Below are positions 1-46,205 of a stretch of DNA of 64,000 nucleotides, one piece after another. Origin of the DNA: Diphasiastrum complanatum (Eukaryota > Streptophyta > Lycopodiopsida > Lycopodiales > Lycopodiaceae); assembly GCA_029204225.1 (NCBI GenBank), contig CM055098.1, forward strand, positions 16,018,858 through 16,082,857. Reading direction: 5' to 3'. The notes below the pieces were generated by a model. That model saw nothing but the letters and a program-made list of their open reading frames with translations, was not told the origin of the DNA and made no database searches. The translations under genes were made by a program, and so were the position numbers. Every line of letters starts with the position of its first letter. The first letter of the stretch is position 1.

Positions 1-3000
1 CCCTGTACTCAGCCTCTGTCGATGATAAGGTAACTGTGGGCTGTTTCTTGCTACACCAAGAAATGGCCCCGGAACCAAGGTTAAAAGTGTAACTTGTGGT
101 CGACTTTCGATCATCCCTATCACCTGCCCAATCCGAATCAGTAAAGCCTCCAAGCTGAAGCTTTCCGTCATCTGTGTACTCAATCCCATAGCAGGTTGTC
201 CCTTTGACGTACCTCAAAACCCACTTGGCTGCTTTCCAATATGCTTCAGTTGGAGAACTCATGAATTGGCTTGCTACACCAACCGCATAGGAAATGTCTG
301 GTCTCGTAGTGGTGAGATAAATCAGGCTACCCACAAGCTGCCTATAAAGAGTCTCGTCCACAAAAGGAGTGCCATCATCTCTGGATGGCTTACTGCTGGT
401 ATCAATGGGCGTGGAAACGGGTTTGCAATCCTGCATGTTGAACCTGTTCAAAACTTCACGTGCATAGTTGGCTTGGGAAATAAACACACAGTTTTCCTTT
501 TTCCAAACCTCCAAACCAAGACAATAGTGGATTAAGCCCAAATCCTTCATCTCGAACTCATTTGATAAATGAGCCTTCACCTTTTCAATAAGCTGCCCAT
601 TGTTACCCGTGATGACCAAGTCATCCACATAGAGAACTATCAAAACAATGTTCCCATCTTCTTCCTTCACGAACAGGTTGCAATCCGACTGACTCTTTAT
701 GAATTGCTCCTTGGCAAAATAGTCGTCAATACGACTATACTAGGCCCTGGGTGCCTGCTTCAAACCATATAAGGCCTTCTTAAGCCTGCATACCATACTT
801 TCCTTGCCCTTAGCCTCAAAACCTTGTGGCTGTTCCATGTAGACTTCTTCAGCCAACTGTCCATTAAGAAAAGCACTCTTCACGTCCATTTGATGGACCT
901 CCCAACCAAAAAATGTAGCCAATGCTAAAACCAACCTGATAGACGTCATCTTAGCTACCGGTGCAAACGTCTCATCATAGTCCAAGCCCTCCTTCTGTGC
1001 ATAGCCTTTAGCAACCAGCGTTGCCTTATGCTTTTCGATGCTCCCATCAGATTTGTATTTGGTCCTGTAGACCCACTTACAGCCAATAGGACGCTTCCCT
1101 TTTGGTAACTTCACCAAATCCCATGTATCATTCTTGAGAATGGAGTCGTACTCCTCTTGCATAGCATGTTGCCATACCTTCTCATCTGCTGCCTCAACGA
1201 ATGTATGTGGATCTTGTGAATCCAAAATAGTAGTCATAAGTGCATAGTTTGTCTCCTGGTGTTCATGCTGCTAGGCTTGCCTTTGAGACCTCCTAGCCCC
1301 TGGATTGCTGCTCTCTCCCTCATCCAATATCAAACCATCCTGCACAGTTTGCCAATACCACTTGGGAAACTTCTTCCTTGCAGTTGGTGATGAAGACGGT
1401 GAATAGGACTCAACAGATTTGCCCCTTTCCTTCCACTTCCTAGCCTCCTCGGATTCTTCCTCTTGATCACTCATATGATCATCCTGAGGCTCCCCAATAT
1501 ATGGATGTGGGTCATCAAGTATTGGCACAAATTCACTTGTACCATCCTCCATCTCAAGTTCCTCTATAGGAGGCGTTTGATCTTCTTCAAAGATCACATC
1601 TCGACTTATGATCCTCTTCTTGCTAGTAAGATCGTAAAGTCTGTAAGCTTTGCTTTCTTCACTGTATCCCAAGAAAATACTCTTTGCTGATTTTGCATCC
1701 AGCTTCTTCCTGTTATCCTTGGGAGTATGGGCATAGGCCGTACAACCAAACACTCGCAAAGCGCCTACCTTGGGCTTAATGCCGCTAAATGCCTCTTCTG
1801 GAGTCTTGCCTTCCACAGCTTTTGTTGGACTTCTATTCAACAGAAACACTGCTGTGTGCATTGCCTCGCCCCAAAAAGAGTTGGGCAACCCCTTTGCCTT
1901 GAGCATGCACCTTGCACACTCCACAATAGTTCGGTTTTTTCTCTCTATTACGCCGTTTTGCTGAGGGGTATGAGGAGCTGTAAGCTGCCTTTTGATCCCA
2001 TTGGCCTTGCAGAATTCCACAAATTCTGTCTTAATGAACTCTCCACCACCGTCTGACCTGAGCATCTTTATCTTCTTTCCTGAATGTTCTTCTACCAAAG
2101 CTTTGAAATGCAGGAAGTACTTGAATGCTTCAGATTTTAACTTCAAGAAATAAATCCAAATCTTGCGCGAGAAGTCATCAATAAAGGTCATAAAGTAATA
2201 TGCCCCCCCTACAGTTTTTGTTTGGGTTGGCCCCCACAAATCTGAATGTATCAAGTCAAGTATGCCTGCTGCCCTGGTGGTGCTTTCCTTGGGAAACTTA
2301 TGTCTTTGCTGTTTTCCCATAGCGCAAGCCTCGCAAACTGAAGAGCTTGGCTTAACAACTGGAAGCCCCTCCACCATATGATGCTGGTTCAACACCTGCT
2401 TGCTTTGGTAGCCAAGATGTCCATACCTCTCATGCCACAACCTATCCACATCCCTTCCTTTTGTTGTATAAGCATGCTGACTAGGGATAGAAGTGTATAA
2501 CCTGTATAGATTATCTTCCTGCAATCCTTTGGCCACAACCTTCATATTATCACTCAAGTCCAACACAAGACAAGAAGTAGCATCAAATTCTACTTTCATA
2601 TTTTGTTGAGTGAGAGCTCCTACTGAAAGAAGATTTTTAGCAAGTCCTGGTACATATAAGACATTCTTAATGACTTTGACTTCTCCTGATGGAAGCTTTA
2701 CAGGTACTGTGCCCTTTCCCTTGACCTTGTGTGTTGAGTTGTCACCTAGGCACACCTCTTGTCCATCACTAATCCCCACAAAGGTATCAAACGAATCCCT
2801 ATGAGGGGTCATGTGCTTTGAAGCACCTGAGTCAATGTACCAACCACCTGTTGTAGCTTGTGAAGCCAATGCAACAGAGAATAACTCAGCTTGCCTTATG
2901 TCACTCTGCTCCTCTCTTGCAACACTCTCAACAACATTTCCTCCTTGCTTCTTTGTGCCCTTCTTTTGGTCTGCAAGCTTCTTCCTGCACTCAAAAGCAA

Positions 3001-3799
3001 AGTGTCCATATTTACCACAGTAATTGCAATTCCCCTTCCTTCGAGGTGTGGAAGAAGTATTCGAGGAGGGTTGTGCTTCTGACATCTGCAAGTTCTCCAT
3101 TCCTTGCTCAAGTGTTTGTGGTGTTCCTTTGTTCTTGCCTTTACCTTTCTTCTTATCCTTAGCTGGATTTTGCTTCTTCTTAGAAGCAAAGACATGCTCC
3201 TGGAAATCTTCCCTCTTGGAGAGATTAACTCTCCTCATCTCCTCCTGTAACAAGAGACCATAGACTTCTTCATAGGTAGGGATCTTCTCTCTCAGTGATA
3301 TCATCATCACAAAGTTCTGATAAGCATATGACAAGCTAGTCAGAACTATTGGCACCAAGTCTTTGTCAGCAATAGACTCTCCAAGTACAGAAAGCTGATA
3401 TCTAATATCCTGAATCTTAGTAAGATGATCAGTAACTGTCTCCCCTGTCTCCAATCTGAGAGTATACAACTTGTTCTTCAAGTAGAGAAACCTGGTTGTA
3501 CTTGCTGTCTCATACAATGCACAAAGAATGTGCCATGCATCCACAGGCCCTTTGGTTGACCTGATTAGAGGAATCACATTATCCCTCATTGACATGTTGA
3601 TGATTCTGTGTGCCTTTTCCCCTCTCTTGATATAGTCCTTAAGTTCAAGTTCAGATGTTGGAACAGGCTCCTCACCTGTCACAAGCTTCCAACATTCTTT
3701 GTCTTCAAGAATGTTCTTGATCTTGAATTTCGAGATGCTAAAGTTAGTGCCATCAAGCCGGCTGGCTTCACTCTGCATGCTCTCTGCAAGACTAGACAT
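1..3799 (-). pseudogene. Ty1/copia element A gag-pol, broken, 3' end outside window
   Basis: Polyprotein of a Ty1/copia retrotransposon, read leftwards. The likely start is the ATG at 3799 (MSSLAESMQ). Domains in order: UBN2-type gag; CCHC zinc knuckle (CNYCGKYGHFAFEC) near 2987-3030; aspartic protease WYIDSGASKHM near 2810-2845; integrase zinc-binding region and DDE core (HSDLWGP, FIDDFSRK, PHTPQQNGVIERKNRT) about 2450-1900; reverse transcriptase from about 1237, with LYVDD near 622-637; RNase H running off position 1 (KKQPTVTLSSTEAEY). Two in-frame TAG stops break it: one near 1271 and one at about 740, where the usual QAPRAW motif has TGG changed to TAG. Otherwise the frame is open, so decay is recent. 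The copia order integrase before RT is clear. Confidence 0.95.
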
Positions 3800-4198
3800 A
3801 GCTGGATAGAAATAAAACACAAAAGGCACTGGGGTTTTCACCCAACTAGGGTATGCAGCCACTTGCTCAATAACCCTCGGCTTCTGGATTTGAAACTATG
3901 GCTGTCCTAGCCCTTGTCCAAGATCCACTCAGAACTTTCACTGAAGTCCCCACTGTAGAAAGCGGCCTCCTACAGTCCTGGCTGTCCAAAAAGACTCAAA
4001 ATTTTTTGTCTCAAATTAGAAACTTTTTGGCTCCCTGTACTCCCCTTGCCAACAGTACTCCAACCATGCAGATAGCACAGAGATCAGATGCCCCTACAAA
4101 AAGTGCTCCCTCCTCAAAGGTAAGCTGCTCTCCAGGAATGGCAGGAATCTGATCAAAAACAGGTCCAAGCTTTCACCACACCACAGGCAACATAGCCT

Positions 4199-10240: not shown

Positions 10241-12548
10241 TGTCTAGTTTTGCAGAGAGCATGCTGAGTGAAGCCAGCATATGGAAATTCAAGATCAAGA
10301 ACATTCTTGAAGACAAAGAATTTGGAAGCTTGTGACAGGTGAGGAGCCTGTTCCAACATCTGAACTTGAACTCAAGGACTATATCAAGAGAGGGGAAAAG
10401 GCACACAGAATCATCAACATGTCAGTGAGTGATAATCTGAGTCCTCTACTTGAAGAACAAGTTGTATACTCTCAGAATGGAGACAGGGGAGACAGTTACT
10501 GATCATCTTACTAAGATTCAGGATATTAGATATCAACTTCTTGTACTTGGAGAGTCTATTGCTGACAAAGACTTGGTGCCAATAGTTCTGAATAGCTTGT
10601 CATATGCTTATCAGAACTTTGTGATGATGATATCAGTGAGAGAGAAGATCCCTACCTATGAAGAAGTCTATGGTCTCTTGTTACAGGAGGAGATGAGGAG
10701 AGTTAATCTCTCCAAGAGGGAAGATTTCCAGGAGCATGCCTTTGCTTCTAAGAAGAAGCAAAATCCAGCTAAGGATAAGAAGAAAGGTAAAGGCAAGAAC
10801 AAAGGAGCACCACAATCACTTGAACAAGGAATGGAGAACTTGCAGATGTCAGAAGCACAATCCTCCTCGAATACTTCTTCCACACCTCGAAGGAAGGGGA
10901 ATTGCAATTACTGTGGTAAATATGGACATTTTGCTTTTGGGTGCAGGAAGAAGCTTGCAGACCAAAAGAAGGGCACAAAGAAGCAAGGAGGAAATGTTGT
11001 TGAGAGTGTTGCAAGAGAGGAGCAGAGTGACATAAGGCAAGCTGAGTTTTTCTCTGTTGCATTGGCCTCACAAGCTACAACAAGTGGTTGGTACATTGAC
11101 TCAGGTGCTTCAAAGCACATGACCCCTCATAGGGATTGGTTTGATACCTTTGTGGGGATTTGTGATGGACAAGAGGTGTGCCTAGGTGACAACTCAACAC
11201 ACAAGGTCAAGGGAAAGGGCACAGTACCTGTAAAGCTTCCATCAGGAGAAGTCAAAGTCATTAAGAATGTCTTATATGTACCAGGACTTGCTAAAAATCT
11301 TCTTTCAGTAGGAGCTCTCACTCAACAAAATATGAAAGTAGAATTTGATGCTACTTCTTGTCTTGTGTTGGACTTGAGTGATAATATGAAGGTTGTGGCC
11401 AAAGGATTGCAGGAAGATAATCTATACAGGTTATACACTTCTATCCCTAGTCAGCATGCTTATACAGCAAAAGGAAGTGATGTGGATAGGTTGTGGCATG
11501 AGAGGTATGGACATCTTGGCTACCAAAGCAAGCAGGTGTTGAACCAGCATCATATGGTGGAGGGGCTTCCAGTTGTTACAAGCTCTTCAGTTTGCGAGGC
11601 TTGCGCTATGGGAAAACAACAAAGACATAAGTTTCCCAAGGAGAGCACCACCAGGGCAGCAGGCATACTTGACTTGGTACATTCAGATTTGTGGGGCCAA
11701 CCCAAACAAAATCTGCAGGGGACCTTTATTGATGACTTCTCACGCAAGATTTGGATTTATTTCTTGAAGTTAAAATCTGAAGCATTCAAGTACTTCCTGC
11801 ATTTCAAAGCTTTGGTAGAAGAACATACAGGAAAGAAGATAAAGATGCCTAGGTCAGACGGTGGTGGAGAGTTCATTAAGACAAAATTTGTGGAATTTTG
11901 CAAGGCCAATGGGATCAAAAGGCAGCTTACAGCTCCTCATACCCCTCAGCAAAATGGCGTAGCAGAGAGAAAGAACCGAACTATTGTGGAGTGTGCAAGG
12001 TGCATGCTCAAGGCAAAGGGGTTGCCCAACTCTTTTTGGGGCGAGGCAATGCACACAACAATGTTTCTGTTGAATAGAAGTCCAACAAAAGCTGTGGAAG
12101 GCAAGACTCCAGAAGAGGCATTTAGCGGCATTAAGCCCAAGGTAGGCGCTTTGCGAGTGTTTGGTTGTACGGCCTATGCCCATATTCCCAAGGATAACAG
12201 GAAGAAGCTGGATGCAAAATCAGCAAAGAGTATTTTCTTGGGATACAGTGAAGGAAGCAAAGCTTACAGACTTTACGATCTTACTAGCAAGAAGAGGATC
12301 ATAAGTCGAGATGTGATCTTTGAAGAAGATCAAACGCCTCCTATAGAGGAACTTGAGATGGAGGATGGTACAAGTGAATTTGTGCCAATACTTGATGACC
12401 CACATCCATATATTGGGGAGCCTCAGGATGATCATATGAGTGATCAAGAGGAAGAATCCGAGGAGGCTAGGAAGCGGAAGGAAAGGGGCAAATCTGTTGA
12501 GTCCTATTCACCGTCTTCATCACCAACTGCAAGGAAGAAGTTTCCCAA
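10241..12548 (+). pseudogene. Element B gag-protease-integrase, truncated before RT
   Basis: Polyprotein of element B starting at the ATG at 10241 (MSSFAES). The gag N-terminus has lost a short piece after SEAS, carries a frameshift near 10320, and lacks about 80 bp near 10440 relative to element A. From 10450 the frame is open for about 700 codons: zinc knuckle CNYCGKYGHFAFGC near 10900-10945, protease WYIDSGASKHM near 11090, integrase HERYGHLGYQ, HSDLWGQ, FIDDFSRK, PHTPQQNGVAERKN. A few residues after HSDLWG are lost compared with element A. The frame ends abruptly at KKFPK, where it runs into 3' LTR sequence and stops. Without RT it could move only with help. Confidence 0.95.
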
Positions 12549-12851
12549 GTACATAGTACACCCCACTTGTGCTAATTAGGCAAGTAATATGAAGTAGGTT
12601 GAGGACCCATGTGGGTTCTAGAGCTAGAATTAGCAAGACACCACCTCTATACATTACATGCTATATGTAGCCCAAACTTTGGAGGGGTTTCCACGCCCTA
12701 CTACACTTTGAATAATCATTCAAGTTGTGTGAGCTTTGAAGTCCTCTCTCACTTGCTTTTGTGTTCTACTCCATAGCTGTTTTTTTGAAGCTTTCATAGT
12801 GTGCTTACTATGCTGTTATGATACTCCATAGCTAGGCCTTGGAATTTGTCA
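12549..12851 (+). repeat. 3' LTR of element B, lacking its first ~90 bp
   Basis: Matches the 5' LTR from the GTACATAGTACACC point (9513 onward) to the terminal TGTCA. The junction with pol shares only the dinucleotide GT with the lost ends, a microhomology-type deletion joint. Confidence 0.93.
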
Positions 12852-22157: not shown

Positions 22158-22205
22158 GTTTTGGGCAATAGTACCTTGTATGTTGTAATTGTAACACTCA
22201 TTAGA

Positions 22206-22232
22206 GGAGTTACAAACATCAAAAGGGCAGTC
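22206..22232 (+). repeat. Possible left terminal inverted repeat
   Basis: GGAGTTACAAACATCAAAAG followed by GGGCAGTC. Against the reversed right end, about 20 of 27 positions match with small gaps; the GGAGTT, CAAAC and AAGGGC blocks are identical. Confidence 0.4.
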
Positions 22233-22513
22233 TAAGAAATGCCACGTAGGACAAAAAAAACGTCGGATTTTAAAACTCCAACGGACTTTCAGGTCCAGTT
22301 TAGCTTAACCTTACTAGTAATGTGTAGTTAACATGACACGATTATGACGTATGCAACTGCGACTTCAAGAACCTATGACGCTCATTAACTAACTTTTTCA
22401 AATTTGAAAATGAGATTGTGTCCCTCGTTGTAACTAGCGAGAGAATAAACATAGAATCTCAGGTACGTCATGGATGAATAATAGTGTCTATTTTCTTTTT
22501 GGTCTGTCATCTG

Positions 22514-25285
22514 ATGTTTGCGGAGATGTCTCAGTTTCATCTACACATTGTTCTCCCTGCCGAGAATGCTCCGATAGCTAAAAGAGGAGTAGTGAAAGAA
22601 TCCACAGTTTCTCCACTTGATATGATCGCTCACAGAATCAACCAAAGAAAGAATTACGATTTGTGGATTGACGGAAGTTTGTATCCATTGGATCCGAGCT
22701 CGATGCAAGCTCCACAATTCCAATCCATCACACAATTAATAAAGTTTTTGTGTGACGGAGAAGACGGTTTATTGGGTTATTGTGAAAGATTGATGACTTA
22801 TGGTCTTGCAAACTCGGTTCAGAAAATAAAGAGTTTAGAATGTATGTTAAATGGTTTGCTTGCTGACTATAGAGAAAAAGAGACCGCATTATTACAAACA
22901 AAAGAAGATAATGCACGTTTACATAATATTATGTTAAATTTGAATGCAAGTAATGGTCAATTTCGACAAGTTGTTCAGACATTACGTATATCAAATGACC
23001 AGTTAAAAGAAGAAACTCGCATACTAGATAAGAAATTAAAAAGAAACAAGCGAAAAAGAATTCTGAAGGACATTGATGAGCTTTCGCTAAATGGAGGCCA
23101 ACGGAGAAAAAAGATTCAAGCATTCAAGTAAGGATTTGATTTGAATCAGTTTTATTTTAGTTTTGTGAAGTAGCATGACATTTATTATGTGTCCTATTTG
23201 GGTTTCTTGATTTTCATAATCATTTGCAGATCAGCATTGGTTGCAAATGAGCATCTGAAGGACAATGACCTGATCGGAAAATCATTGAGTTCGGTATTGA
23301 CAACCAAGTCCACAAAGTCTTTATTGGACAATAACCAGTATTCTTGAATCAAGTCCAAGGTCACTGAGAATTTGATGAACGAGGTCGGTAAGGTAATCGA
23401 CCGAACATTAATTCAGGGAGCATGTGATTTCTCAGGTATTAGCAGGGAGGCATATGCCAGTATATTTAAAATTATTAAAGAGGATTTTGGACAATTGCAT
23501 GTAAGAAAATTTCCCATTCCTCGCCCTTTTCAGATAAGATTGGAGAGAGATGTATTGAATAAGGGTATGCAAAATGTCATTGGAATCTCTTTTCACATCA
23601 ATGAGATTTATAATTCAAACTCTGGTAATTTGTCATATAATTCTACCAACAACTTATTTGTGGATTTGAATCATTTATTGAGATTTATAGTGAAATTCTA
23701 TAATATTACAAGTGTTAGTATGAGCAAACTTATTCTGATGGTCGAGCTAGATGAATCGGAAGTTATAAAAGGACAAAAGTTGGAAAGAGTAAGTATTACT
23801 CTCATGAATGGAGCATTGAGCAATGCAACAAACTCAAGGGCTCAACTTCAGTGTGCAATCAGAAAACAACATATGGTGGCTAGCATGTTTTCAGGTAAAA
23901 AATGGTTGTTATTCATGTGCAATTTCTTTTGGTAATTGTTTTGAATACATAAAAACTTGTGATTCCATATGTTGAACAGGTTATCAAGGAGGATCACGAT
24001 GTTCTTTCCTGGATTTTTAGTAGAACAAGTTATCCAGATATCATAAAGGATCATATGAATGGCAAAGTACTTAGTGTTCCTGAAAGAGGTGAATTTTTGG
24101 TGGAATGGCATTTAGCTGGAGACTTGAAGTCATTGAAATGTATGTTCAATGTATCTCATGGAGCAAATTCGAAACATCCATGTCTATATTGTATGAAATC
24201 ATTAAATGACATTTCAAGGAACACAAAAGTTTCAAGAGATATTGAAGATCCCAACTGGAAACCAATACTACCAATCCCTTTACAAAATGTGCATATTTGC
24301 ACACTCCATGGAGAGGTGAGGATCATAGAGAAATTAATATATCTTCATATCTTGTTTGCATGGAATACTAAGCCAGAGTCAGCATCAAAACAAGCAATCG
24401 CTCGATTAGAGGAAGTGTTGTCAAAAGCAGGCCTTCATAAAGGCCATGTTGAAATACAAAAAGATGAAAAGCTTTCGGGAAAAACAGGAAATGTACCCAA
24501 TAAACCTAGCATAGGAGGAGTCAAAGCTCGTCGATTTTTATCAAATCATTCTAAAGAGTCGTCTAAGATCCAATATTCGGTTTGGAAAGATGTTATTTTT
24601 GTGACAGAAGACTTTGAAGATAAAGGAACAACAAGGGTAAAGAAGGTTGAAGTTTGGAAAAAGCTCGATAATATGATTGAAGTGCTTAGAAAAGACACAA
24701 TTTCATATGCAGATGCACTCCTATTGGAGAAAACAGTAATAGAGTTTGTAGATGCAGTTCGGGTGGCTTGGGGCTCAGATCACATCACCCACTACATGGT
24801 AAGATACATTTAAACAGTGTCTTACAATTTGATAATTTTAATATAACTTGCTTGATAGATTCTAACCAATGCATAAATCTTTGATATTGCAGCACATACT
24901 AAGGCATCATGCATCATTTTTTGCAAAAAAGTATGGCAGTTTGAGTATATGGTCTTCACAAGGAATGGAGAAATCACATTGGCAGGCAAGAGCAGCATTT
25001 CATCGAAATACGCAACATGGTGGAACATCCTCAAAAAATAGTTACATCATTCAGTTATTCCAATGGTTTTATAGACGAGCTCAAGTTCGATACACAACAA
25101 GATCAACTGAATATCAAAAATTCAAAAAAGCATGTAAATTTATAAGCCAAAATGAGATTAAGGCATTCAATAAAGATCAAACATGTGTGATAAAAAATTC
25201 TCAAATTTCACATACATTAAATGAAAAAGAGTACAATCATTTTTTTTCATTGTCTCTAAGGACAATTTTTGTTGTGTGGCCATGA
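22514..25285 (+). pseudogene. Gene 1: transposase-like protein, four exons
   Basis: Exons 22514-23127, 23230-23894, 23980-24798 and 24893-25285 with good GT-AG borders. The N-terminal part (coiled, K/R-rich, LQTKEDNARLHNIMLN) may bind DNA. Later blocks read LILMVELDESEV, EWHLAGDLKSLKCMFNVSHG, CLYCM, HICTLHGE and HILRHHASFFAKKYGSLSIW followed by SSQGMEKSHW. The order acidic residue, G-D-x-K, CxxC, HxxxH, (Q/S)xGxE resembles RAG1/Transib catalytic cores and a widespread unclassified eukaryotic transposase family; assignment is by memory of patterns. An in-frame TGA at 23345-23347 and a one-base phase mismatch at the exon 2/3 joint disable it. Confidence 0.6.
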
Positions 25286-26691
25286 TGGAACTTTTTCCTA
25301 TCATATGGATCCAAAAATCGAGTGGATTGCCTTTGCTCAAATCTATATATCCTGATAGAATTGCCAGAGCAGAGGATCTCATAGGAACATTTTCTGGCAC
25401 ATAATTAAACACTTTAAGAGCAACATCTCTTTTGACAAAAATGACTCTATATGTATTTTTTGGGTATTTATGCCCTTGGGCAAAATAAGATAGGGCCTTG
25501 ATGGCCATGATTAAAGTTCCCGCATTCACAAAAAACCTTTCATGAAGTTTTGTTATTTAAAAAATGTTTCAAATAATGAGCCAACGAGGCATCCTTCTGT
25601 CTCCTGCCTTGTCTCTCTCTCAATCCTCCATGCCTGCTAGCAAAGGCATCAACTTCAACAATATCCTACAACACATAATCAAGTGTTAGTCAAACTAGCA
25701 GATCAATCATCAATTACACGTTAAATAATAAATGATTTTCGTGAGAAGGTATACTTACCAAATCCTCCTTGTCAGCTTGGATCATACCAGCAGCATCTAA
25801 ATTGTGACCAACAATAATGGTGGATTGCTGGTCAGTTGGAATAGTATATGTGGGAGGTGGCGCATAATTTTTCTAAAAAGCCAAAAACTCCTCCTCACTG
25901 GGCATATTAGCCTCATATGCCCTACTCTTAGATAGCATCCTTTGAAAGGCATCTGTGCCACTTGCCCATTCTACCTGGTCCTCATAGTCGATGCCATCTA
26001 TGAGGTCGTCATCATCAAAGTCAATAAAATCTTTAAATTCAGAAATCATCCTTGACATAAGAGATAATATCTCATCTTCTCTGAGATCCATTACGTCTCC
26101 GATGTCGCTAATGGATAAGAATGCAATATCGTCCATATGGTACACAGGGAGGTCCATCAGGGTTCTGCTCTGGTCAATCTCGCTCGTGGTAGATAACTGA
26201 GAGATAGACAGAGAACGAGCCTTGGCAGGATCATATTGTTCTGCTTGCCTGGCCTCCGCTACATCTCCTAAAATCTCATCAGTAATGGAAACCTATGAAG
26301 CCACACGAGTGGTAGGGGCAGACAAACCAATCATGGACGACAAGCAACGTACTCGATTGTGTTCCTCACAGGGTATGACACGTTTAAACAAATCGATAAG
26401 TTTGATAAACTTACGATCATGCCTTTGCTTGGCACTTGGCTAAGCATGAGCCAAATATGTGAAATGCACAAATCTCAGGCCGTCCATCAGAAGGGTACCC
26501 TGTTGCAAGCACTCATAAAAATCCTTGTACAGTTTAGGAAAATTTTCCCTATGCCCAATAACAAATCTCTCTATGTCAAACTGAAAATTGAAATAGGACA
26601 AAAAATGGGCGTGTCTATCGTTTACCTCAGCATCAACTAGGAAAGAACTAAGAGCTTTATCATAGATCAAACTAGCAGACGAGGAGGCCAT
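25260..26691 (-). pseudogene. Gene 2: unknown acidic transposon protein
   Basis: Starts at ATG 26691 (MASSSASLIYDKALSS). One frame continues to a GT donor at 25759, interrupted by three TAG codons (26442, 26295, 25875), about 311 codons in all. The middle is strongly acidic (DFIDFDDDDLIDGIDYED). A second exon opens after an AG at 25675 (DIVEVDAFASRHGGLRERQG) and, after a frame slip, goes on to about 25260 (FFVNAGTLIMAIKALSYFAQ). It converges tail to tail with gene 1 and is divergent from the H3-like gene. I do not recognise the family; the acidic tract would suit a histone or DNA-mimic-binding role, but that is a guess prompted by its partner. Confidence 0.55.
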
Positions 26692-27513
26692 ATCGACTTG
26701 ACGCGCCGGTTAGCAAGGGGACATAAACGAGGTAAGCGCGGCCGCGTGATGGCGATAGCACTGTACGCGAATCCGAATAACAGAGCCATGCGCCAGGGAA
26801 TTAGTGCAACTATGGATGTCTTTGCTGGGCGCGAGGTAGCGATATTGTACAAACAGATTTGGAGCGGGCCAATTAATTGGACTCAATATGCAAAACTGAA
26901 TTACAGAAATGACACTCATATATATAGTCTAATACAGAGCATCTGAACCGTACACGTGTCTCAGTAACGTGCGGTCAAAATTGCCACAAGTGTGGAAACG
27001 ATGGCGAAATCATTCTGAATGACACGTGTACACTTCGGATCCTGACACGCGTCCTCGCACGTGCATGCCAACTGTACTATCGTACGTTCCAGTCATCTTC
27101 TGACACGTGTGTGGTCCATATGTCGCCACGTGTCCTCGCACGTGCATGCCAACCGTCTGATCGTACGAACCACTAATATCCTGATGCGTGTGACCACATG
27201 TGTGACCACACGTGCGGGGAGTGGAGGTGTCACATCGAACGTGCGAATATGATGGGATGTTCTACAGGTATAAAAGGACATTTTCGGGTCTTATTTCAGT
27301 TTCTTAATTCTTCGTTCTCTGGCTCTCCTTAGTTTCCTTCGTTCATTTCCGCTCCCCGTTAGATGCATATCGCTACCATGCGCCAAAGGACCCACATACC
27401 AGAACAGCTGGCCCGCCTGTGCGTCGTGGCGATATGCCATCGCTCATATCGCCATCACGCGCCTCCCCTGTCGAATACCTGCTTTCCCTACTCGTTGGCG
27501 CGTCATATCGATA
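26691..27513. promoter_or_regulatory. Bidirectional promoter with mirrored leader blocks
   Basis: Between genes 2 and 3. Likely TATA boxes are TATATATA near 26919-26927 (for gene 2, minus) and TATAAAAG at 27269-27276 (for gene 3, plus). Three blocks occur in both leaders in mirror orientation: ATATCGCTACC..GCGCC (26845-26828 minus; 27367-27384 plus), TATCGCCATCACGCG (26757-26743; 27447-27461) and GGCGCGTCA..TCGATA (26707-26691; 27497-27513). The spacing from second to third block is 50 bp on both sides. Both genes also start ATGGCC. This implies shared control or an inverted duplication of one leader. Confidence 0.8.
27046..27207 (+). repeat. 81-bp tandem duplication rich in ACGT/G-box cores
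   Basis: Two copies (27046-27126, 27127-27207) beginning CACG(C/T)GTCCTCGCACGTGCA. Each holds several CACGTG-like cores, and more (ACACGTGT) lie at 26953 and 27022. In plants such cores are bound by bHLH and bZIP factors. The repeats sit upstream of the TATA box of the H3-like gene. Confidence 0.85.
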
Positions 27514-27525
27514 CCCTACCTTGCA

Positions 27526-28209
27526 ATGGCCCGTACCAAGCAGACAACTTGCCTTACTACATTTGCCCCGCCTCCTCGCCCTCCTCTACAAAGGGCAGTG
27601 GGCACTGGTAGGAGAGTAGGTCGGCCCAGAAGACCATGGTTAAGGGATATCAGGAGACTTCAGAGGACCACGAATCTTCTGATTCCCCGTGCTCCATTCT
27701 ACAGGTCTGTGAGACTGGTAACAAGGTCCCTCTCACATGATGTTTGCTGGAACATAACAACCCTGGAAGCCCTCCATACTGCCTATGAGGACTTCCAAGT
27801 CAAATTCTTTGAGGACTCCATGCTTTGCACAGTGCACGCAAAGAGAGTTACCCTCATGCCTCAGGACATGCGTCTTGTCATGAGGCTGAGGAGTACATAC
27901 GATCAGGTTTTTAAGAGTGGCTTCACCTCTAGGCCACCACCTACAGAGAGAGGTCCTTGTCCTCAACGAAGAAGGAGGAAGCAGACCAAGCCCACCAGGC
28001 CTGCCAAGCAAAGGGTGGTATTCAGCGAATCGCCATCCCCCCCTCACATCTCTCGTGCTTTGGTTGGACCATCACACCAGTCTGCAGTGCCTTCTTCTCC
28101 TCCCACCACCCCTAACTATTCAAGTAGTTCCTCTTCCATTCCCTCCATTCCACCCCACAATAACAAGGATATGAACTCGACTATAGATAAAATAATATCG
28201 GATTTATAA
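27526..28209 (+). CDS. Gene 3: histone H3-like protein with centromeric-H3 features
   Basis: Intronless ATG-to-stop frame of 227 residues. Residues 1-7 are MARTKQT, identical to the start of H3 (K5 equals H3K4). The rest of the tail is short and unlike H3 (no ARKS, no K27 region; P- and R-rich). The histone fold spans about 39-123: LRDIRRLQRT (alpha N), TNLLIPRAPFYRSVR (alpha 1), W75 in loop 1, LEALHTAYEDFQVKF and FEDSMLCTVHAKRVTLMPQD (alpha 2 to 3). TNLL(I)P, the loop-1 W, DSML and RVTLM are typical of plant CENH3 rather than H3, but loop 1 has the H3 length. Residues 124-227 are a basic then S/P-rich extension not found in histones. The frame appears intact up to 28209, but reads on beyond the stop (next entry), so the original protein was longer. 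Confidence 0.85.
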   Translation: MARTKQTTCLTTFAPPPRPPLQRAVGTGRRVGRPRRPWLRDIRRLQRTTNLLIPRAPFYRSVRLVTRSLSHDVCWNITTLEALHTAYEDFQVKFFEDSMLCTVHAKRVTLMPQDMRLVMRLRSTYDQVFKSGFTSRPPPTERGPCPQRRRRKQTKPTRPAKQRVVFSESPSPPHISRALVGPSHQSAVPSSPPTTPNYSSSSSSIPSIPPHNNKDMNSTIDKIISDL

Positions 28210-28707
28210 GGATCTTTGTGAATTCCTATTGATCCCAAAGATTCATTTTTGGATTCTGAGAGGTATATAATTTTTTATGAGTATGTTGCCAAAGAAATTG
28301 ACAAGCTAAGAGGTCAATTTTCTTTTTGTCTAAGTTCAATTAATTATATAAATCACATAAATAAAGACTTTTGTGATGCTTAGGAGAAGACCTCAGATAT
28401 ATCAGATCTAGTTGTGGAGGCTGGTTTGAAGTATTTTGTAAATAGATGTCAATGCAATGATACTAAGGACATTGGAGTTGTGCTATCCTTTTTTTCACAC
28501 AACCTTCATAGTCGAACTAAGGCGACGAAGTATCTTCTCCATACAACCTCGGAGACCAAAGTCTTTATTATTCCATACTGCCAAAAGTAAGTGATTACAT
28601 GAAATATATTCTAGTAATATTTTTAATAGGTATTGTAATTCCTTTAGTTTAACTTATTATCTCTTGTTTGCAGTAAGCATTGGAGTATGCATATAATCTG
28701 TAAATAA
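28210..28707 (+). pseudogene. Gene 3 continuation: possible Ulp1/C48-like protease end
   Basis: The H3-like frame goes on past TAA 28207, TGA 28219 and TAG 28381 with sensible protein: IPIDPKDSFLDSERYIIFYE, then DLVVEAGLKYFVNRCQ, IGVVLSFFSHNLHSRTK and KVFIIPYCQ. A GT donor at 28587 and an AG at 28673 join in frame to NKHWSMHIICK, then stop. The FxIPxxxxxHW block resembles the catalytic-His segment of Ulp1/adenain-type cysteine proteases, which many plant DNA transposons carry; the catalytic Asp and Cys would lie downstream and are not visible. So gene 3 may have coded an H3 fold fused to a protease-like domain, or two genes fused by decay. Confidence 0.45.
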
Positions 28708-29049
28708 TAGATTAAATAGAGATATACATTTTTGATGTAATGCCCTGTGAATAATTATGGGCATATAGAAAGATAGAGACAATGAGAAAAAAACATCCAT
28801 TGTTAAATACAGGACACACATGTACATTCTCAGAAAATGAGAAATATATTGATATTTATGAGAGCTTTTACAAATCTTGTATCATGCTTGCTCTATTATC
28901 TGAACAATTCCGTCCAAATCTTTGCATTTGATTTTCTCTTCATGTCTTTTACGTATCTGCACAAACATACATTATTCAGATTACAGTTAGTGATCCGAAT
29001 ATTGACAAAAAGGATAATGAATATAAATTAATATACAAATTCATGGATT

Positions 29050-30340
29050 TCACATGCCAATTTTCAATCCAATATAAAGTTGAAATATTCGGGGATATCT
29101 TGTTGTAAAAGGTGTCAGTTCCGTTCTAATGTAGAATAAGGTCCAGTCTTGCTCAACCTCAATAGTAGTAAGTAAATCCCCATTTGCCATGATATCAATG
29201 CCTATACGATCAGTATGTCCAATGCTGACTAGATCTTGATCTAATGGGGCCCAAGTACCATTGTGTTCTTTCCATCTCTGATAATGAAACACCATACTAA
29301 GCATTTGCTTTTCTATACTGTATCTAAATGATATGGATGAATGTTTGATTCTACAAGGAAATATCTGCAGTGGATCTTATATCCCAACCTTTGTCCATGA
29401 ATTTGAATAAAAAATCATCTGAAAGATTTTTGCAAACAAACAATGTGGGAGTTTGATGCACTTCCGTGTTTGAAAAAGAGTTGACAAACAATGACATTGG
29501 AACAAACCAACTTAAGTGCACATTTCTTGATCCTGTACTAGTTTTGAGTGACTTTTGTACATCATTATATAGCTTGGAACGAAAGCATTTTATTATATTG
29601 TCGTTGACTGCAATCCACCACACGTTATCTTGAAAATTAGGTAGAGGTATATACTCTAGTTTTCCCATTCCTCCATTTGTGTCTGGAATATACATAGCAT
29701 CATAAAAAAATATTCCAGAATCTGCAAGTTCTTTTGTCGTTCATCCTCTGTATTGCAATTTGCCAATTTATGAATGGATGACATCTATAATACCAAAAAG
29801 AGACGCCATAGGTTCCCATTCATGTATATATGAAGGATATAGTTCTGCAATACAAAATCATAATAAGCTCCAATTCATAAATACGATTACGTTTTAAAAA
29901 TGACAAGCAATTCAAAAAATTAAGATACTTACAATTACACTTTCGTGTGGATTTACAGCCTCCACATTAAGTTCTGAATGCATATAAACATGTTGAATAA
30001 GCACCTCTGAAATGATTTGTCCTCCTGGAGAAACTTTGAAATCAATAATCTGCCCTTTCCAATAAGATCTATATGTATACTTGGCCTTTTTCTTTTGGCG
30101 AAAAGCCCCTCTCCTCGATGGATGCATCAGTACCCAAGAAGCCTTATGATATTCACGAGCAATCCATGTGCCATCGTCTTCCCTCATTATAAAAAATTGC
30201 AGAGCATATCAAGGATCTCGGTCTCCTTCCAATTGCCATAGCTTGAAGAGTTCACGTTTGAATTCGTCAATATGAGAGTCCACAGTATAATAGGCGCCAA
30301 ACCTATTTGTGAGTCCCAAGATAATTTTAACTTGAGGTTA
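29050..30340 (-). pseudogene. Gene 4: unknown transposon protein, at least two exons
   Basis: First part about 30335-29932: GLTNRFGAYYTVDSHIDEFK, one TGA, then MREDDGTWIAREYHKASWVL and SYWKGQIIDFKVSPGGQIIS to a GT donor (GTAAGT) at about 29931. After an intron ending TTGCAG near 29850 the frame continues LYPSYIHEWEPMASLFGIID, with a TAA and a TGA, to MYIPDTNGGMGKLEYIPLPN, FQDNVWWIAVNDNIIKCFRS and, after one more stop, DLVSIGHTDRIGIDIMANGD, ending at 29050. Splicing gives a one-base phase mismatch, so a small indel is likely. It is convergent with gene 3. I do not recognise the family; a BAH-like or transposase-partner role is only a thought. Confidence 0.5.
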
Positions 30341-30543
30341 ACCCAAGCAGTTTAGTCAACCAGTCGTCGCGAACGCTAGCCAATAGTATGCTTCCAATCT
30401 ACCGGACCGGAAATTCAAATTTGCCCAAATATGTATTGTGTTTTCCGGGTCAGGCGAGTTATGTTACATAGAAGCCACTATGTCAAGAACCGATTGGGCC
30501 ACATGGACATAAACAGAGAGGAAACAAAAAAAAACTCGTAACA

Positions 30544-30570
30544 AACGGCCCTTCTAAGTTTGAGAACTCC
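30544..30570 (-). repeat. Possible right terminal inverted repeat
   Basis: Read on the minus strand: GGAGTTCTCAAACTTAGAAG followed by GGCCGTT. It pairs with 22206-22232. A GGGCCGTTTGTTACGAG end of this sort is common among plant DNA transposons, so the true tip might instead be at the GGGC. Confidence 0.4.
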
Positions 30571-31339
30571 TGTAATGTTAGAAGTTCCATAAGTTATTTC
30601 TTGTACAAAATTGAATCCATCATCCAACCAAAACCAAACAAGAAGTCTTTTTTGTCAAGGACACTTGGACAAGTTGGGTAAGAGAGAAATTTATGCAACA
30701 AGGTTTGAATCTAACCTATGCTTGTTGGCAAGTTTGGAGCCTTGTGCTTGTTCATATGTTTGGAGGCTTGTGCATGAAATATGCTTAGTACAGTTAGGTA
30801 CGACCTAACACTATTCAATTGTGTATAGAATATGCTCAGTATAGTTAGATTAAGTTAGGCTATGCATAAAATATGCTTTATAATCTATAATGGCAGGTTA
30901 AAAAAGACAAGAAATTTTCTTGTCTAGAAAAGTCTTTATGTCAAACTCGATGGTCAAAAAAATCCAAAGAAGTTCACTAGCCAACCGGCTTATCTCATAA
31001 CTAATTGGCCTTTTTTGCAAATAGCATGAAATTGATGGTCTAGATTTGAAATGATTAGTTTTTCCTAGCTAGTTATAATGTGAAATTGATGCAGGAGAAT
31101 GAAAATTAGCCATTTAATCTTTTTTTTTTTTGAAAACAATCTATTAATAAAAAAAGAGTACAAGCGTATTCTCACCTATTTCTGTCTATTTATTTCAGAG
31201 AATATTACTTGGAGCATATATGAAGTCCAACTAGCATAATTAACCAACCTAATTTGACATAAGCTATGAGTGAGTAGTAGAAAGTCGGCACTTCATTTCC
31301 TTTCTATTGACGGTTGTTTGGTCTATGACTCTCCTACTA
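30571..31339. other. No gene seen
   Basis: AT-rich; a poly-T run near 31120-31131. Near-duplicate phrases 'tatgcttagtacagttaggt' and 'tatgctcagtatagttagat' (30778-30850) suggest a small local duplication. Confidence 0.45.
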
Positions 31340-33988: not shown

Positions 33989-34401
33989 GCCTATCTGTCT
34001 GTCTGCGCACTCTCACACACACCATTAAGTCGTCAGCAGCAGCAGAAGCTTCTATCTTGCAGCTCAAGAAACGAAGCTTTGCTTGTCACTGCCTGGCAAG
34101 CAAAACACACTGCTGATTTGCTTTGCCTTCTTCCATCTCTTTTTTTGGATCTTTTCGTGCTGGTTGAGCTGAGTATAAACTTAGCTCAGCTGTCTCAGTT
34201 GTTCACAAACTTTATTCCTCTGCAAAGACACGCCTACACTCAACGATATCCACTTTTCATTAGTATCACTCTTTTCTTTCCGATTTCTTTGCGTGGACAT
34301 CAGGAATAAGCCCTTGCTTGTGCTCTTTTCTTTTCCATATCTGTTTATAGGTGTTGGGACTCGGGAGTTAGCCATTGCTCGTGAAAGAAGGCGGAATCGG
34401 G

Positions 34402-35736
34402 ATGAGTACAATGAAGTTCTTATCACCTGACCCCATAAGATTTCCCTTTGAGTTGCCTGCTGCTGCTGGTAGCCATTACGAAGCGGAGCAAACTAGTGCA
34501 GATTCTACGCCTTTTGCAAGTGCTCCATCCAGCCCAAGCCGATCTAAGGCGCATGACCTCTTCTATAGTGTGCCACCAAGTCCTCGCCGTGGGATTGAAA
34601 GCTTCAGTGACTCAGCTGATCTGCAGGCATCTATACCATTCAGCTGGGAGGAGGCACTGGGGACAAGGAAGCAAACCAGCTTTGCTTTAGATCCTGAGTT
34701 TGAGTTTTCTGCCTTGGTCTTCGAAGATCGCCGCGCACTTAGTGCCCCAACAAGCCCTAACAGAGAGTACACCATTGGGTTGGGTATGCAGGATCAGTTG
34801 AGAGAGGCTTCTGGAAAAGTTGACCAATCAGAAAAGGTAGCGCAAGACTTGGATTCAGATTTTAGATTCAGTTCAAGTCAGTTTGATGCCCTGTCGTCGG
34901 CTCAGATGTCGTCGGCTGATGAGCTTTTCTTCAAAGGTAAAATTTTGCCCTTGAAGCAACCACCCAGGGTGCAAGGACCAACTCAGGAATTCGCATTTGA
35001 TCACTCTGAGAAGGGCCCTTCATCCATGTCTGCACCTCCGTCACGGACGTCTCCTCGTGGGAGCGGAGCTTCTGGAGCGAAGAGCGTGTTAGGTTTGAAA
35101 AGCTCCTCTACAGAATCCAAACATGAGAATATAAACCTTAGACAAGGATGGGCAAAGGGTTTCGCGCCATCGCGTCTTTTTCGAAAGGATCAGCGGCCAA
35201 ACGCAGCAATGGAAGCGACGGAAACCGCAGGAACAAGCCCCTTTTCAACTCAGCAGATGAGAAAAGGTAGTGACAGATCCAAAAAATCAGCAGAATTAAA
35301 TCTTAATCATCTGAACATCTCAGATGTGGATGATGCCTCCGTACAAATCCAGAATATCAAAGCTTTGAGCCATGTGAATGGAAGAGATGGGCAGCAATCT
35401 CATCGGTATCTACCTGATTTGCCAGAAAACATTGCTGTTAAAAGGTGGTATGACAAAGATGGAGACAAAAGGATGAAAAATGGTGCTGCAAGATCCTGGC
35501 CCAGACCATCTGCCAGATCAGTTCTTGCAACAAGGAGTTCACGGGATACGAGTTCCTCCAAGCAAGGCTCTTTGGCTGCTCCGCTTGAATTGCATTACAG
35601 GAACAATGGGGTGACGTCGGAGCAGATGAGGAGGAGAACCTTTCTTCCTTATAAGCAAAGCTTGCTGGGATGCCTGGGCTTTGGCAATATGTGGGTTCCT
35701 GCGCTTTCTTCTACCTTGGAATCAATGGGAAGATAG
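34402..35736 (+). CDS. DUF1645 family protein
   Basis: Intact 444-residue protein starting at ATG 34402 (MSTMKFLSPDP); the upstream open codons have no ATG. It has the plant DUF1645 (PF07816) order: ASAPSSPSR and YSVPPSPRRG near the start, IPFSWEEALGTRK, DPEFEFSALVF, SSADELFFKGKILPLKQPPR near the middle, and the C-terminal RRTFLPYKQSLLGCLGFGNM. The family is plant-specific; biochemical function is unknown, with reported links to growth and stress responses. The protein is serine-rich and has no membrane segment. Its nearest genic neighbour is the convergent MAKR-like gene 8 kb downstream, which shares the ADELF-x-GK-LPL motif. Confidence 0.88.
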   Translation: MSTMKFLSPDPIRFPFELPAAAGSHYEAEQTSADSTPFASAPSSPSRSKAHDLFYSVPPSPRRGIESFSDSADLQASIPFSWEEALGTRKQTSFALDPEFEFSALVFEDRRALSAPTSPNREYTIGLGMQDQLREASGKVDQSEKVAQDLDSDFRFSSSQFDALSSAQMSSADELFFKGKILPLKQPPRVQGPTQEFAFDHSEKGPSSMSAPPSRTSPRGSGASGAKSVLGLKSSSTESKHENINLRQGWAKGFAPSRLFRKDQRPNAAMEATETAGTSPFSTQQMRKGSDRSKKSAELNLNHLNISDVDDASVQIQNIKALSHVNGRDGQQSHRYLPDLPENIAVKRWYDKDGDKRMKNGAARSWPRPSARSVLATRSSRDTSSSKQGSLAAPLELHYRNNGVTSEQMRRRTFLPYKQSLLGCLGFGNMWVPALSSTLESMGR

Positions 35737-43952: not shown

Positions 43953-45233
43953 TCAGTCCCCCATAACATCTGACCCCAGTGAAACTTTAGGTGGATTTTC
44001 TTTCTTCAACAAAAAGAGTTCTCTAAACTTCTCCAACTTGCTTTTGGAGGATTTTCCATTCTTGATTGAGGGACTCAAGCAAGTGGGCACATTCAGGACT
44101 GGAGTTACTCTCACACTCGAACCATAGGAGCTGACCTTCTCAGGAGCTCTCCGGTATGCCAAGAGCTTCAAAACATCGCCCTCTTCTTGCAATTTGCTAC
44201 AACCTTTCTGATGACCCCTGCATCTTTCTGGGTTCTTCAAGATTATTCTGCTTGACTGCACTCTCCTGGAGTTCACTATAGAAGCTGACTCATTCTCTCT
44301 GGAAGCAGATTTTTCAGAAACAGTCTGGACTTGAGCTCTCTCAGGACTACTCCACCTTGAACTTGGCATTGAAATTGATCTCCCAGACGAACATCTCCTA
44401 TTGGATTCAACTTCCACTTCTGAGTGCCTGCATATCCTGCCACGATTCATGCCACGACTCAGGAGGCTTTCCATTGAATTGACATCAGGCAGAAACTGAT
44501 GTTCCTGTCTGTTGCTACGTGTCCTGTGATGCTGCTTTTGATGGAGGACAGTGGAGCTTGGGATGTGGCAAGAGATTGGCTGTGAAATAGGAGATGTGGG
44601 AAAGGATTTTGAGAAGGTGGGGAGTTTAGCTGCCTTCTTCTCAGCACCTGTGTTACTTCCAACAAGGAGCTTCCACAGCTTTGAGGTAGCCACGAATCTA
44701 TTAGATCCATTCCCTTGTGCCTTTTTTGCACCAAAGAAATCTCTCAGTAAAATAGAGCACCTTGGGGTTTCAGGTGAAGGAGGGGCAATGGTACCCCTCT
44801 GAGGGGATGAGCAGAAAGCCAAACAGGGATGACCCAGATCAAGTACAGAAATCGCTTCTTGCCCGGCAAGACTGTGTGGCATGAAAAGAGGGGTTGCCTC
44901 TTGATCCACTGTAGCTGCACGAGTTTGAGCATCACCCTTTTTTGGCTGGAGACAAGGCTGTAAAGGAAGAAGCTTTCCATTGTAGAAGAGCTCATCTGCA
45001 GGGAGCATAGCTGATCCACCAGATAAAGAGTCATAGACACTGAAATTGAACATACTAAACTCAAAATCAGTGGAGAAGCAACTGCGATCTTGCTTTCCCA
45101 CAGGTGCCTCATCCAACTGAGGAAAGCTATCCGAAAAAGAAACACGAGGACTCAGCCATTCCATCTGGGAGGAATCACTACTCAAAAAGTGGGGCGATGT
45201 ATCTATGCTCTGCAGTAATGATTCACAAGCCAT
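43953..45233 (-). CDS. MAKR-like (membrane-associated kinase regulator) protein
   Basis: Intact 426-residue protein with the first in-frame ATG at 45233 (MACESLLQSIDTSPHF). Key block: CFSTDFEFSMFNFSVY then AMLPADELFYNGKLLPLQP at about 75-105, the (D/E)FEF...PADELFYxGKLLPL signature of plant MAKR/BKI1 relatives, which bind acidic membranes and receptor kinases. The middle is serine- and basic-rich (RSNRQEHQFLPDVNSMESLL, RSISMPSSRWSSPERAQVQ), fitting phosphoregulated membrane association. The end reads VRVTPVLNVPTCLSPSIKNG and KLEKFRELFLLKKE. No transmembrane segment. DUF1645 proteins share the ADELF motif, so membership could be argued, but the FEF spacing and C-terminus fit MAKR better. Single-exon as seen. 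Confidence 0.62.
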   Translation of the reverse strand: MACESLLQSIDTSPHFLSSDSSQMEWLSPRVSFSDSFPQLDEAPVGKQDRSCFSTDFEFSMFNFSVYDSLSGGSAMLPADELFYNGKLLPLQPCLQPKKGDAQTRAATVDQEATPLFMPHSLAGQEAISVLDLGHPCLAFCSSPQRGTIAPPSPETPRCSILLRDFFGAKKAQGNGSNRFVATSKLWKLLVGSNTGAEKKAAKLPTFSKSFPTSPISQPISCHIPSSTVLHQKQHHRTRSNRQEHQFLPDVNSMESLLSRGMNRGRICRHSEVEVESNRRCSSGRSISMPSSRWSSPERAQVQTVSEKSASRENESASIVNSRRVQSSRIILKNPERCRGHQKGCSKLQEEGDVLKLLAYRRAPEKVSSYGSSVRVTPVLNVPTCLSPSIKNGKSSKSKLEKFRELFLLKKENPPKVSLGSDVMGD

Positions 45234-46205
45234 TTTCTGAGCAAATTGGCAACTAAAGCGAATCTTTGAGCAGGAATTCCGGGCTAGCAAAGCTTATCAC
45301 CCACGCAAAGCTGAGGCCATAATCTTTCCTGGCTAACAAATATAGCAGCAAACTTCAGTCATATCTCTCGACAGCTGCTCAATTTGCTTGGAAAACACAA
45401 TTAAGCAAAGATGGGTTCTTTGTATCTGATGGTGTCTTTTTGGTAGCTATTTGAGCCTATATCTCACTTGCAGCTGCGTGCACGCTTGTGCAGGCTAATA
45501 AGCACGCTTGTTGTTCCGTTGCGTTTCTGTTGTTCTACAGAGAAGAGACAGATCGCCTAAAATAGCTGCAAGCCGCGCATCTGAGGGAGACGCCAGGAAG
45601 ACGACAGAAATTTCAAACTTAAATGTCAGAGGCTATTTACTCTGGCCTTTAAAGAGCGAGACACCTGCTGCAGGAAATGGCGGCTCTGCTTACCCGTGAA
45701 ATTCTGGAACAACCCAAATCATTTGAAATGGAAACGTTACGCTCTAATCTTAACTATAGAGCCCATAGATATTAGATAAGAGAGAGAGAGAGAGAGATAG
45801 AGAAAGAGAGATCGATCTATGATCTGACTCCGACTGAGATTCTAAGAGAGTGTTCTCTGCAGACTGCAGTCTGAGTCTCTGTATGTAGTATGTATGTACT
45901 ATCACTATGTACAGTGAGTTGTGAGTGAGTCCTGGTGCTAGGACCCTAGGTGCTTGCAAGCTGCTGTACTATGTGCATTGTGCAGTGAGTTGTAAACTTT
46001 GCAACCCACACTGCAAGATGTGATCTGGGACCCGGGTGGTATTCTGTACTCAAACTACAGGACTGCAAATCCCAAGCACGTGAACTAAAATTTTGCAGTT
46101 TGATCGAGATCAAAAAGTTCAGTACAATGATCAATCTGGCATTTGCTTGTGTGAGAGATAAAAGATCTTAACTAGTAGCAGTATTCCACTACCAGCCAAT
46201 CAAAT

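Follow-up and report, generated by a model that had tools for sequence, protein, structure and literature searches.

A predicted histone H3/C48-protease fusion carried by a DNA transposon of Diphasiastrum complanatum

A stretch of 64,000 nucleotides from the lycophyte Diphasiastrum complanatum (GenBank assembly GCA_029204225.1, contig CM055098.1, positions 16,018,858 to 16,082,857 of the forward strand; referred to here as the window) contains a DNA transposon with a gene for a histone H3-like protein. Comparison of this copy with others in the same genome shows the H3-like frame of the window to be the N-terminal part of a predicted fusion between a histone fold and an Ulp1-type (C48) protease. 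We are confident of the anatomy, namely an element-encoded H3/C48 fusion in a four-gene DNA transposon that has a transposase with C(2)C and H(4)H motifs and occurs as two subfamilies. The findings suggest that the element may bring its own chromatin to evade silencing.

A histone fold joined to a C48-type protease

A preliminary description of the window had reported an ATG-to-stop frame starting with MARTKQT and holding a full histone fold. The frame proved exact, and the Pfam family Histone (PF00125) matched residues 22–122 of its product at E 9e-23. A sequence search of the PDB gave 176 distinct matches at E <= 0.001, with H3.Y at the top (1.6e-21). Matches of this strength exclude a chance similarity to H3. 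The longer frame of another copy, L013, was also modelled: the predicted local distance difference test (pLDDT) score averaged 59.5 over the whole model, with block means of 85–95 at residues 51–120, and nucleosomal H3 was the nearest of the PDB chains. By profile and predicted fold, the histone fold of the element protein is that of a core histone. Residues C110, H113, and R116 of H3, which we take to lie at the H3–H3 interface, were retained in 25, 27, and 27 of the 27 copies compared, respectively. The closest database protein to the window H3 was P0002, annotated in Diphasiastrum complanatum as O6H91_14G014700.

In L013 the frame is open over 365 residues, past the end of the window copy, and is followed by two introns and then by exons bearing K(H)WSMH, IVDA, and QQ..GHSCGWF. 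GT donors were present at all four loci shown (L009, L018, L013, and L005), and the first acceptor was AG in L009, L018, and the window. When three spliced protease forms were scanned singly, L009 alone scored above the Pfam cut-off: its spliced exons matched Peptidase_C48 at E 1.2e-6 (29 bits, cut-off 20.7) and carried the catalytic His and Cys motifs. L045, a copy of the other subfamily, had a part order and intron positions identical to those of the L013 fusion. With the 463-residue fusion as query, two proteins were found among 5113 candidates, and both aligned to the histone part alone. In the window copy a stop and a local deletion truncate the fusion; compared with other copies, it lacks about 610 bp at 28698/28699, and most of the catalytic exons are lost with them. 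The preliminary description had read the end of the frame as a new basic, S/P-rich C-terminal extension. The end is not a natural one, and the segment is the linker of the predicted histone–protease fusion.

The ratio of nonsynonymous to synonymous substitution (dN/dS) was calculated by region over the 27 copies, and again without CpG-bearing codons. The histone fold gave 0.197 ± 0.024 (0.199 without the CpG codons), the linker 0.51, and the N-terminal part of the protease 0.45; for the fold, comparison with the divergent copy L042 gave 0.105. Between L013 and L045, the proportion of nonsynonymous differences in the fold (pN) was 0.18 and that of synonymous differences (pS) 0.83, the latter saturated. 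These values show purifying selection on the histone fold, and the true constraint on it is stronger than the ratios indicate, because decay after insertion raises dN/dS. It may be noted separately that synonymous divergence over 27634–27903 and its copies was roughly double the value in adjacent parts (0.21 against 0.10–0.13). CpG decay was considered as its source and rejected, as the values were still 0.18 against 0.07–0.10 without CpG codons.

A lysine at H3 position 4 was found in all 27 copies. Any other lysine at tail residues 1–36 occurred, at any position, in at most 2 of the 27, and K4 was the sole lysine of the P0002 and L045 tails too. The lysines K9 and K27 are gone from the H3 tail of the element. 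Canonical H3 has eight lysines within its first 44 residues; the two CENH3 proteins compared had four and eight, in longer stretches. Taken with the retained interface residues, this lysine composition suggests that the element histone would be able to enter nucleosomes but not to carry K9 or K27 marks.

The transposon, its copies, and its insertions

The genome of Diphasiastrum complanatum (1.74 Gb) was searched, and the best 150 matches were scored for each query. Window-type H3 (query P0001) had at least 150 copies (E <= 1.0e-74, 68–100% identity), and H3 of the sister subfamily (P0002-type) at least 150 other places, making 300 distinct places with the P0001 matches. Among the 150 P0001 matches listed, 13 covered residues 1–227 without an internal stop (frameshifts not counted), and 137 had a stop or were incomplete over that range. 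The second gene of the element also had at least 150 copies.

The transposase exon gave 137 matches, 93 at 79% identity or more and 44 below. For 30 of the 93 (the window included), an H3 of the window type followed on the same strand no more than 12 kb downstream, mostly at 3.3–3.7 kb, and, among the matches listed, none of the 93 had a P0002-type H3 beside it. For the 44 matches of lower identity, again among those listed, 14 had a P0002-type H3 and none a window-type one. About 0.14 such pairs were expected by chance; pairs on opposite strands numbered two, and no pair had its H3 upstream. The H3 rows being the best 150 per type, a transposase row without a partner does not mean that H3 is absent. 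For the fourth gene, 56 of the 150 matches listed lay within 12 kb of a window-type H3 in convergent orientation, and 3 pairs were on the same strand. The matching of transposase and H3 by subfamily indicates, from sequence, that the histone gene was already part of the element before its two subfamilies diverged. The preliminary description had proposed looking for further H3 copies and their neighbours; what was found was not a single-copy, syntenic, unlinked gene but a multi-copy one, linked to the transposase and to the fourth gene. As an observation in its own right, P0002-type H3 forms a dense group on G000:C3, with 22 of the 150 matches listed at 18.53–21.71 Mb and 4 more at 29.98–30.10 Mb; many of these copies have a 171-residue frame, and the group may reflect amplification in place or a chromosome region of a special kind.

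The bounds of the element were obtained by comparing positions 15001–40000 of the window with ten stretches of 20 kb, each surrounding another copy. A single interval was common to copies with unrelated flanks (Table 1), and its ends read CATTA...TAATG, in agreement with the earlier claim that the H3-like gene lies inside a DNA transposon. The copies C3a, C6a, and C10 measured 8.9–9.06 kb. Five of the ten copies (C3a, C10, C6a, C3b, and C2a) reached the left part; C6a has an inner inversion, C3b has inner gaps, and C2a lacks the first 95 bp. The other five (C9, C2b, C14, C20, and C4; L029-L036, L025, and L026) lack the left side, with differing breakpoints, and keep the exact right end. The ten were picked by H3 match, and the bias towards the right end may stem from this sampling; the left truncations of C9 and C2b represent a single case, duplicated. 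Long terminal repeat (LTR) insertions were rejected as the source of left-truncated copies: of six junctions, C2a alone ended in CA, as an LTR would.

Within the window copy, about 70 bp present in others are missing at 26341/26342, and the transposase gene contains one TGA (23345–23347). The G+C-rich interval between the two divergent genes holds a TATA-like motif, TATAAAAGG, at 27269–27277 and may serve as a promoter. For the second and fourth genes, no Pfam family was found above cut-off in the pieces scanned. The region around the element includes copia-type retroelement frames (740–3862, minus strand; 10450–12579, plus strand) and a host-type frame matching Pfam DUF1645 at E 3.1e-8 (34375–35736, plus strand). 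A long frame at 43953–45290 (minus strand) had no Pfam match and looks similar in make-up to the host-type frame.

Table 1. Features of the transposon copy in the window (positions in the 64,000-nucleotide stretch)
Feature	Position	Strand	Basis or remarks
Whole transposon copy	22199..30577		8379 bp; interval common to copies with unrelated flanks
Left terminal inverted repeat	22199..22228	+	CATTAGAGGAGTTACAAACATCAAAAGGGC
Transposase gene	22514..25285	+	About four exons; open frames, relatives P0064-P0078, RAG1/Transib-like predicted fold of P0064
Transposase exons	~22514-23129, 23230-23894, 23980-24798, 24893-25285	+	Borders by eye; exon 2/3 border uncertain
Second gene	25167..26691	-	Acidic protein, no family assigned; opposite strand to, and divergent from, the histone gene
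G+C-rich interval between the two divergent genes	26692..27525		Sequence, composition
H3-like ATG-to-stop frame	27526-28209	+	227 residues; starts MARTKQT
H3-like frame, tail			Residues 1-36
H3-like frame, histone fold	27634-27903	+	Residues 37-126
H3-like frame, linker	27904-28179	+	Residues 127-218
Broken C48 protease remnant	28210..28698	+	Copy comparison; Pfam Peptidase_C48 with spliced L009 exons
Fourth gene	29050..30208	-	No family assigned; convergent with the histone gene
Right terminal inverted repeat	30548..30577	-	Read inward: CATTACAGGAGTTCTCAAACTTAGAAGGGC

The window transposase exons matched 15 protein clusters (P0064-P0078) among 7994 candidates at 32–42% identity, with E values down to 5.7e-118; the relatives came from ENA, JGI, 'lgn', and one NCBI entry. 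The motifs D411, D508, and C528-x2-C531 of P0064 were invariant or nearly so over the 15 rows, HILKVH and then QGME followed in the rows long enough, and the same motifs stood in the window frames. Such an order (D, D, C-x2-C, H-x4-H, E) fits the CMCT group of transposons. A model was predicted for P0064, a relative at 37% identity to the window transposase (pLDDT 65.8, predicted template modelling score 0.56). In a Foldseek search with it, the 24 PDB chains matched at E <= 0.001 were without exception RAG, lancelet RAGL, or HzTransib (best 9.1e-11, query TM 0.25–0.36), and the next match stood at E 0.35. A sequence profile of the transposase, searched against the PDB to E 10, did not find RAG1. 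The family may have a RAG1/Transib-like fold, as predicted from the P0064 model. A RAG2-like partner gene was looked for, and no kelch or PHD match appeared above the Pfam cut-off in the pieces of the other genes scanned. A viral origin was rejected: the transposase profile gave 11 pattern matches in viral contigs and no confirmed relative.

No target-site duplication was found at eight independent insertions. Five were copies with both ends; a 4-bp match at C10, offset by 2 bases, was no better than that of 2 in 20 mixed flank pairs. The three further insertions (C2b, C4b, and C14b, the last with its duplicate C2993) showed no duplication either, C2b having an offset 4-bp match. C2c, C19, and C289, for which the stretch taken showed no right end, were left out of this count. 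Natural empty sites were available for two insertions. At C2b the joined flanks formed an unbroken copia RNase H frame (...SWLSKKQDTISLSSTESEYKALTS...), and at C3b they were gapless over 117 bases across the junction against another stretch of the same locus. In both cases, the insertion neither duplicated nor removed any base (0 bp each).

Possible roles of the fusion

We propose that the fusion would act as a chromatin-directed anti-silencing factor of the element. Its H3 part would pair with host H4 and join nucleosomes or H3–H4 complexes, where the tail would show K4 without the heterochromatin lysines K9 and K27. The attached protease would strip SUMO from nearby silencing machinery, and copies of the element would stay transcribable and accessible to the transposase. 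This role is favoured because transposons with VANC/Ulp1 and TET/JBP proteins offer precedents. Anatomy and putative mechanism, taken as one statement, come slightly short of an even chance. A broader reading joins a self-supplied K4-only H3 and a deSUMOylating protease, selected since before the subfamily split, to a RAG1-fold transposase that makes no target duplication; it would have the element lay silencing-proof chromatin on its own copies and would make this the first transposon-encoded core histone described. That reading we put forward tentatively, with less assurance than the preceding one.

Several points weigh against this proposal. The introns underlying the fusion were read by eye, and L013 and L005 have AA at the first acceptor. 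Peptidase_C48 did not match the L013 form (up to E 1) or the L045 form (up to E 10), both of which are altered at the His or Cys motif. A four-row protease profile reached SENP2 in the PDB at just E 0.65, behind an unrelated protease at E 0.37. The transposase exon is mostly decaying (dN/dS 0.78, 5 copies). Next to no constraint is seen on the tail taken as one region (dN/dS 0.89; 1.0 when CpG codons are left out). Drift could therefore account for the missing lysines, and a lone K4 across 27 related copies is weak evidence.

Instead of acting against silencing, the fusion might aid transposition. The H3-like protein would then mark or package element DNA, or would form K4-methylated chromatin by which the transposase complex is guided, and the protease would free the complex from SUMO control. 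The histone gene does travel with the transposase of its own subfamily, and K4, the one tail lysine kept, recalls the PHD finger of RAG2, which binds H3K4me3 (PMC8355894). But the other genes yielded no RAG2-like or PHD domain above cut-off, and packaging has no need of a protease. We consider this explanation unlikely, though it is the best of the alternatives.

The preliminary description had inferred capture of a CENH3-type gene, with which the element might load onto or target special chromatin such as centromeres, or shield its own DNA; in the centromere reading, the protein would load there and take the element along. The residues on which it relied (TNLLIP, a Trp in loop 1, DSML, and RVTLM) are all present in the window copy, and loop 1 has the H3 length it reported, aligning to canonical H3 with zero gaps. 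DSML, however, is atypical for the H3 family of the element, its site having Thr in 19 and Met in 7 of the 27 copies. In the sister subfamily (P0002 and L045), loop 1 is longer than in canonical H3. In a tree of 34 rows (17 of 31 inner branches open), the four H3 rows of the element formed a clade of their own (100/100) with a stem of 1.46, and the nearest row was P0019, a metagenome H3 (88/83). The eight angiosperm CENH3 rows formed a separate clade (100/99). The element H3 does not group with the sampled angiosperm CENH3 in this tree, and an origin from CENH3 found no support. Descent from a lycophyte CENH3 may still apply, since the host's own CENH3 was not recovered among the 150 matches listed and the CENH3 rows of the tree are from angiosperms only. 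That search returned 13 intronless full-length matches at 51–54%, taken, without verification, for canonical H3, and 137 further rows at 42–54%, taken for element copies. For centromere targeting as such, TNLLIP, the loop 1 Trp, and RVTLM are suggestive, and the dense sister-subfamily group on G000:C3 could mark a special region. Against it stand the separate clade, the H3-length loop 1 of the window type, the spread of copies over many chromosomes, and the occurrence of TTNLLIP in relatives not labelled CENH3. On balance, we rate it as somewhat less probable than an aid to transposition.

It is highly improbable that the gene is a passenger, a captured fragment of a host histone useless to the element: captured gene pieces are frequent in plant transposons (PMC13317346) and most copies are decayed (137 of the 150 matches listed), but the fold is under purifying selection and the same fusion is retained in two subfamilies. 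An ordinary H3 or CENH3 gene with a transposon landed alongside, for which the presence of an H3 fold and no more can be cited, is ruled out by multi-copy linkage and by the position of H3 inside the interval common to copies with unrelated flanks.

Comparison with known systems

Like plant CENH3 and histone H3, the element protein has a histone fold and some CENH3-type residues; it differs in forming its own clade, in its short one-lysine tail, and in the protease fusion. A multi-copy H3-like family, with a MARTKQT start and a long N-terminal extension, was also observed in the fern Ceratopteris richardii (P0046, P0058, P0060, and P0061), where P0058 represents 22 member sequences. The start and the presence of several copies are shared with the element; however, the extension is N-terminal in the fern and C-terminal in the element, and the fern proteins stand apart from the element clade in the tree.

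The CMCT group comprises EnSpm/CACTA, Mirage, Chapaev, Transib, Plavaka, ESTA, and Lanisha, with target-site duplications of 2–5 bp (PMC12730594). The element shares with it the order of D, D, C-x2-C, H-x4-H, and E, the 5'-CA..TG-3' ends, and a RAG1-like predicted fold (PMC12730594), and differs in lacking a target-site duplication and in having a histone–protease gene. RAG and Transib ends start with CAC and the target duplication is 5 bp (PMC7204232). Here the predicted transposase fold is similar, whereas the ends start with CAT, the 5-bp duplication is missing, and no RAG2-like partner was found in the pieces scanned. Transib-like proteins have been reported in plants (PMC9435367), and therefore the transposase alone is no surprise. 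Spy transposons too have terminal inverted repeats and no target-site duplication, but their insertions lie within AAATTT and their single transposase gene is of the Harbinger type (PMC4482050); AAATTT was not at the insertion points of the element copies examined. The combination of a 0-bp duplication with a RAG1-like predicted fold is relevant to what determines target duplication in RAG, Transib, and CACTA elements.

As for the accessory gene, VANC/KIU proteins of Vandal elements, some of which contain an Ulp1 domain, bring about hypomethylation of their own kind (PMC13317346). Vandal is likewise a plant DNA transposon with an Ulp1 domain in an accessory protein, which in the case of Vandal counters silencing (PMC13317346), but it has no histone and its transposase is of the MULE family. 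Other DNA transposons carry chromatin enzymes, such as TET/JBP in fungi and SET in oomycete Harbinger and MuDR, and the fungal TET/JBP genes are thought to erase silencing marks (PMC12730594). These elements share with ours an epigenetic accessory gene, which encodes a mark-acting enzyme in their case and not a histone. The preliminary description knew of no plant transposon with an H3 gene, and we found no report of any transposon-encoded core histone in the open-access papers searched (subscription papers, preprints, and Repbase lay outside the search); in the main text of a 2026 review of plant transposon gene capture, the word histone occurs 0 times (PMC13317346).

With K4 kept and K9 and K27 absent, the element histone yields a sharp prediction on which tail residues are needed for plant silencing, and the fusion is a ready tool for testing it. 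The known anti-silencing means of transposons are DNA-binding proteins and mark-acting enzymes; a core histone would be a different route, one that alters the substrate of the marks.
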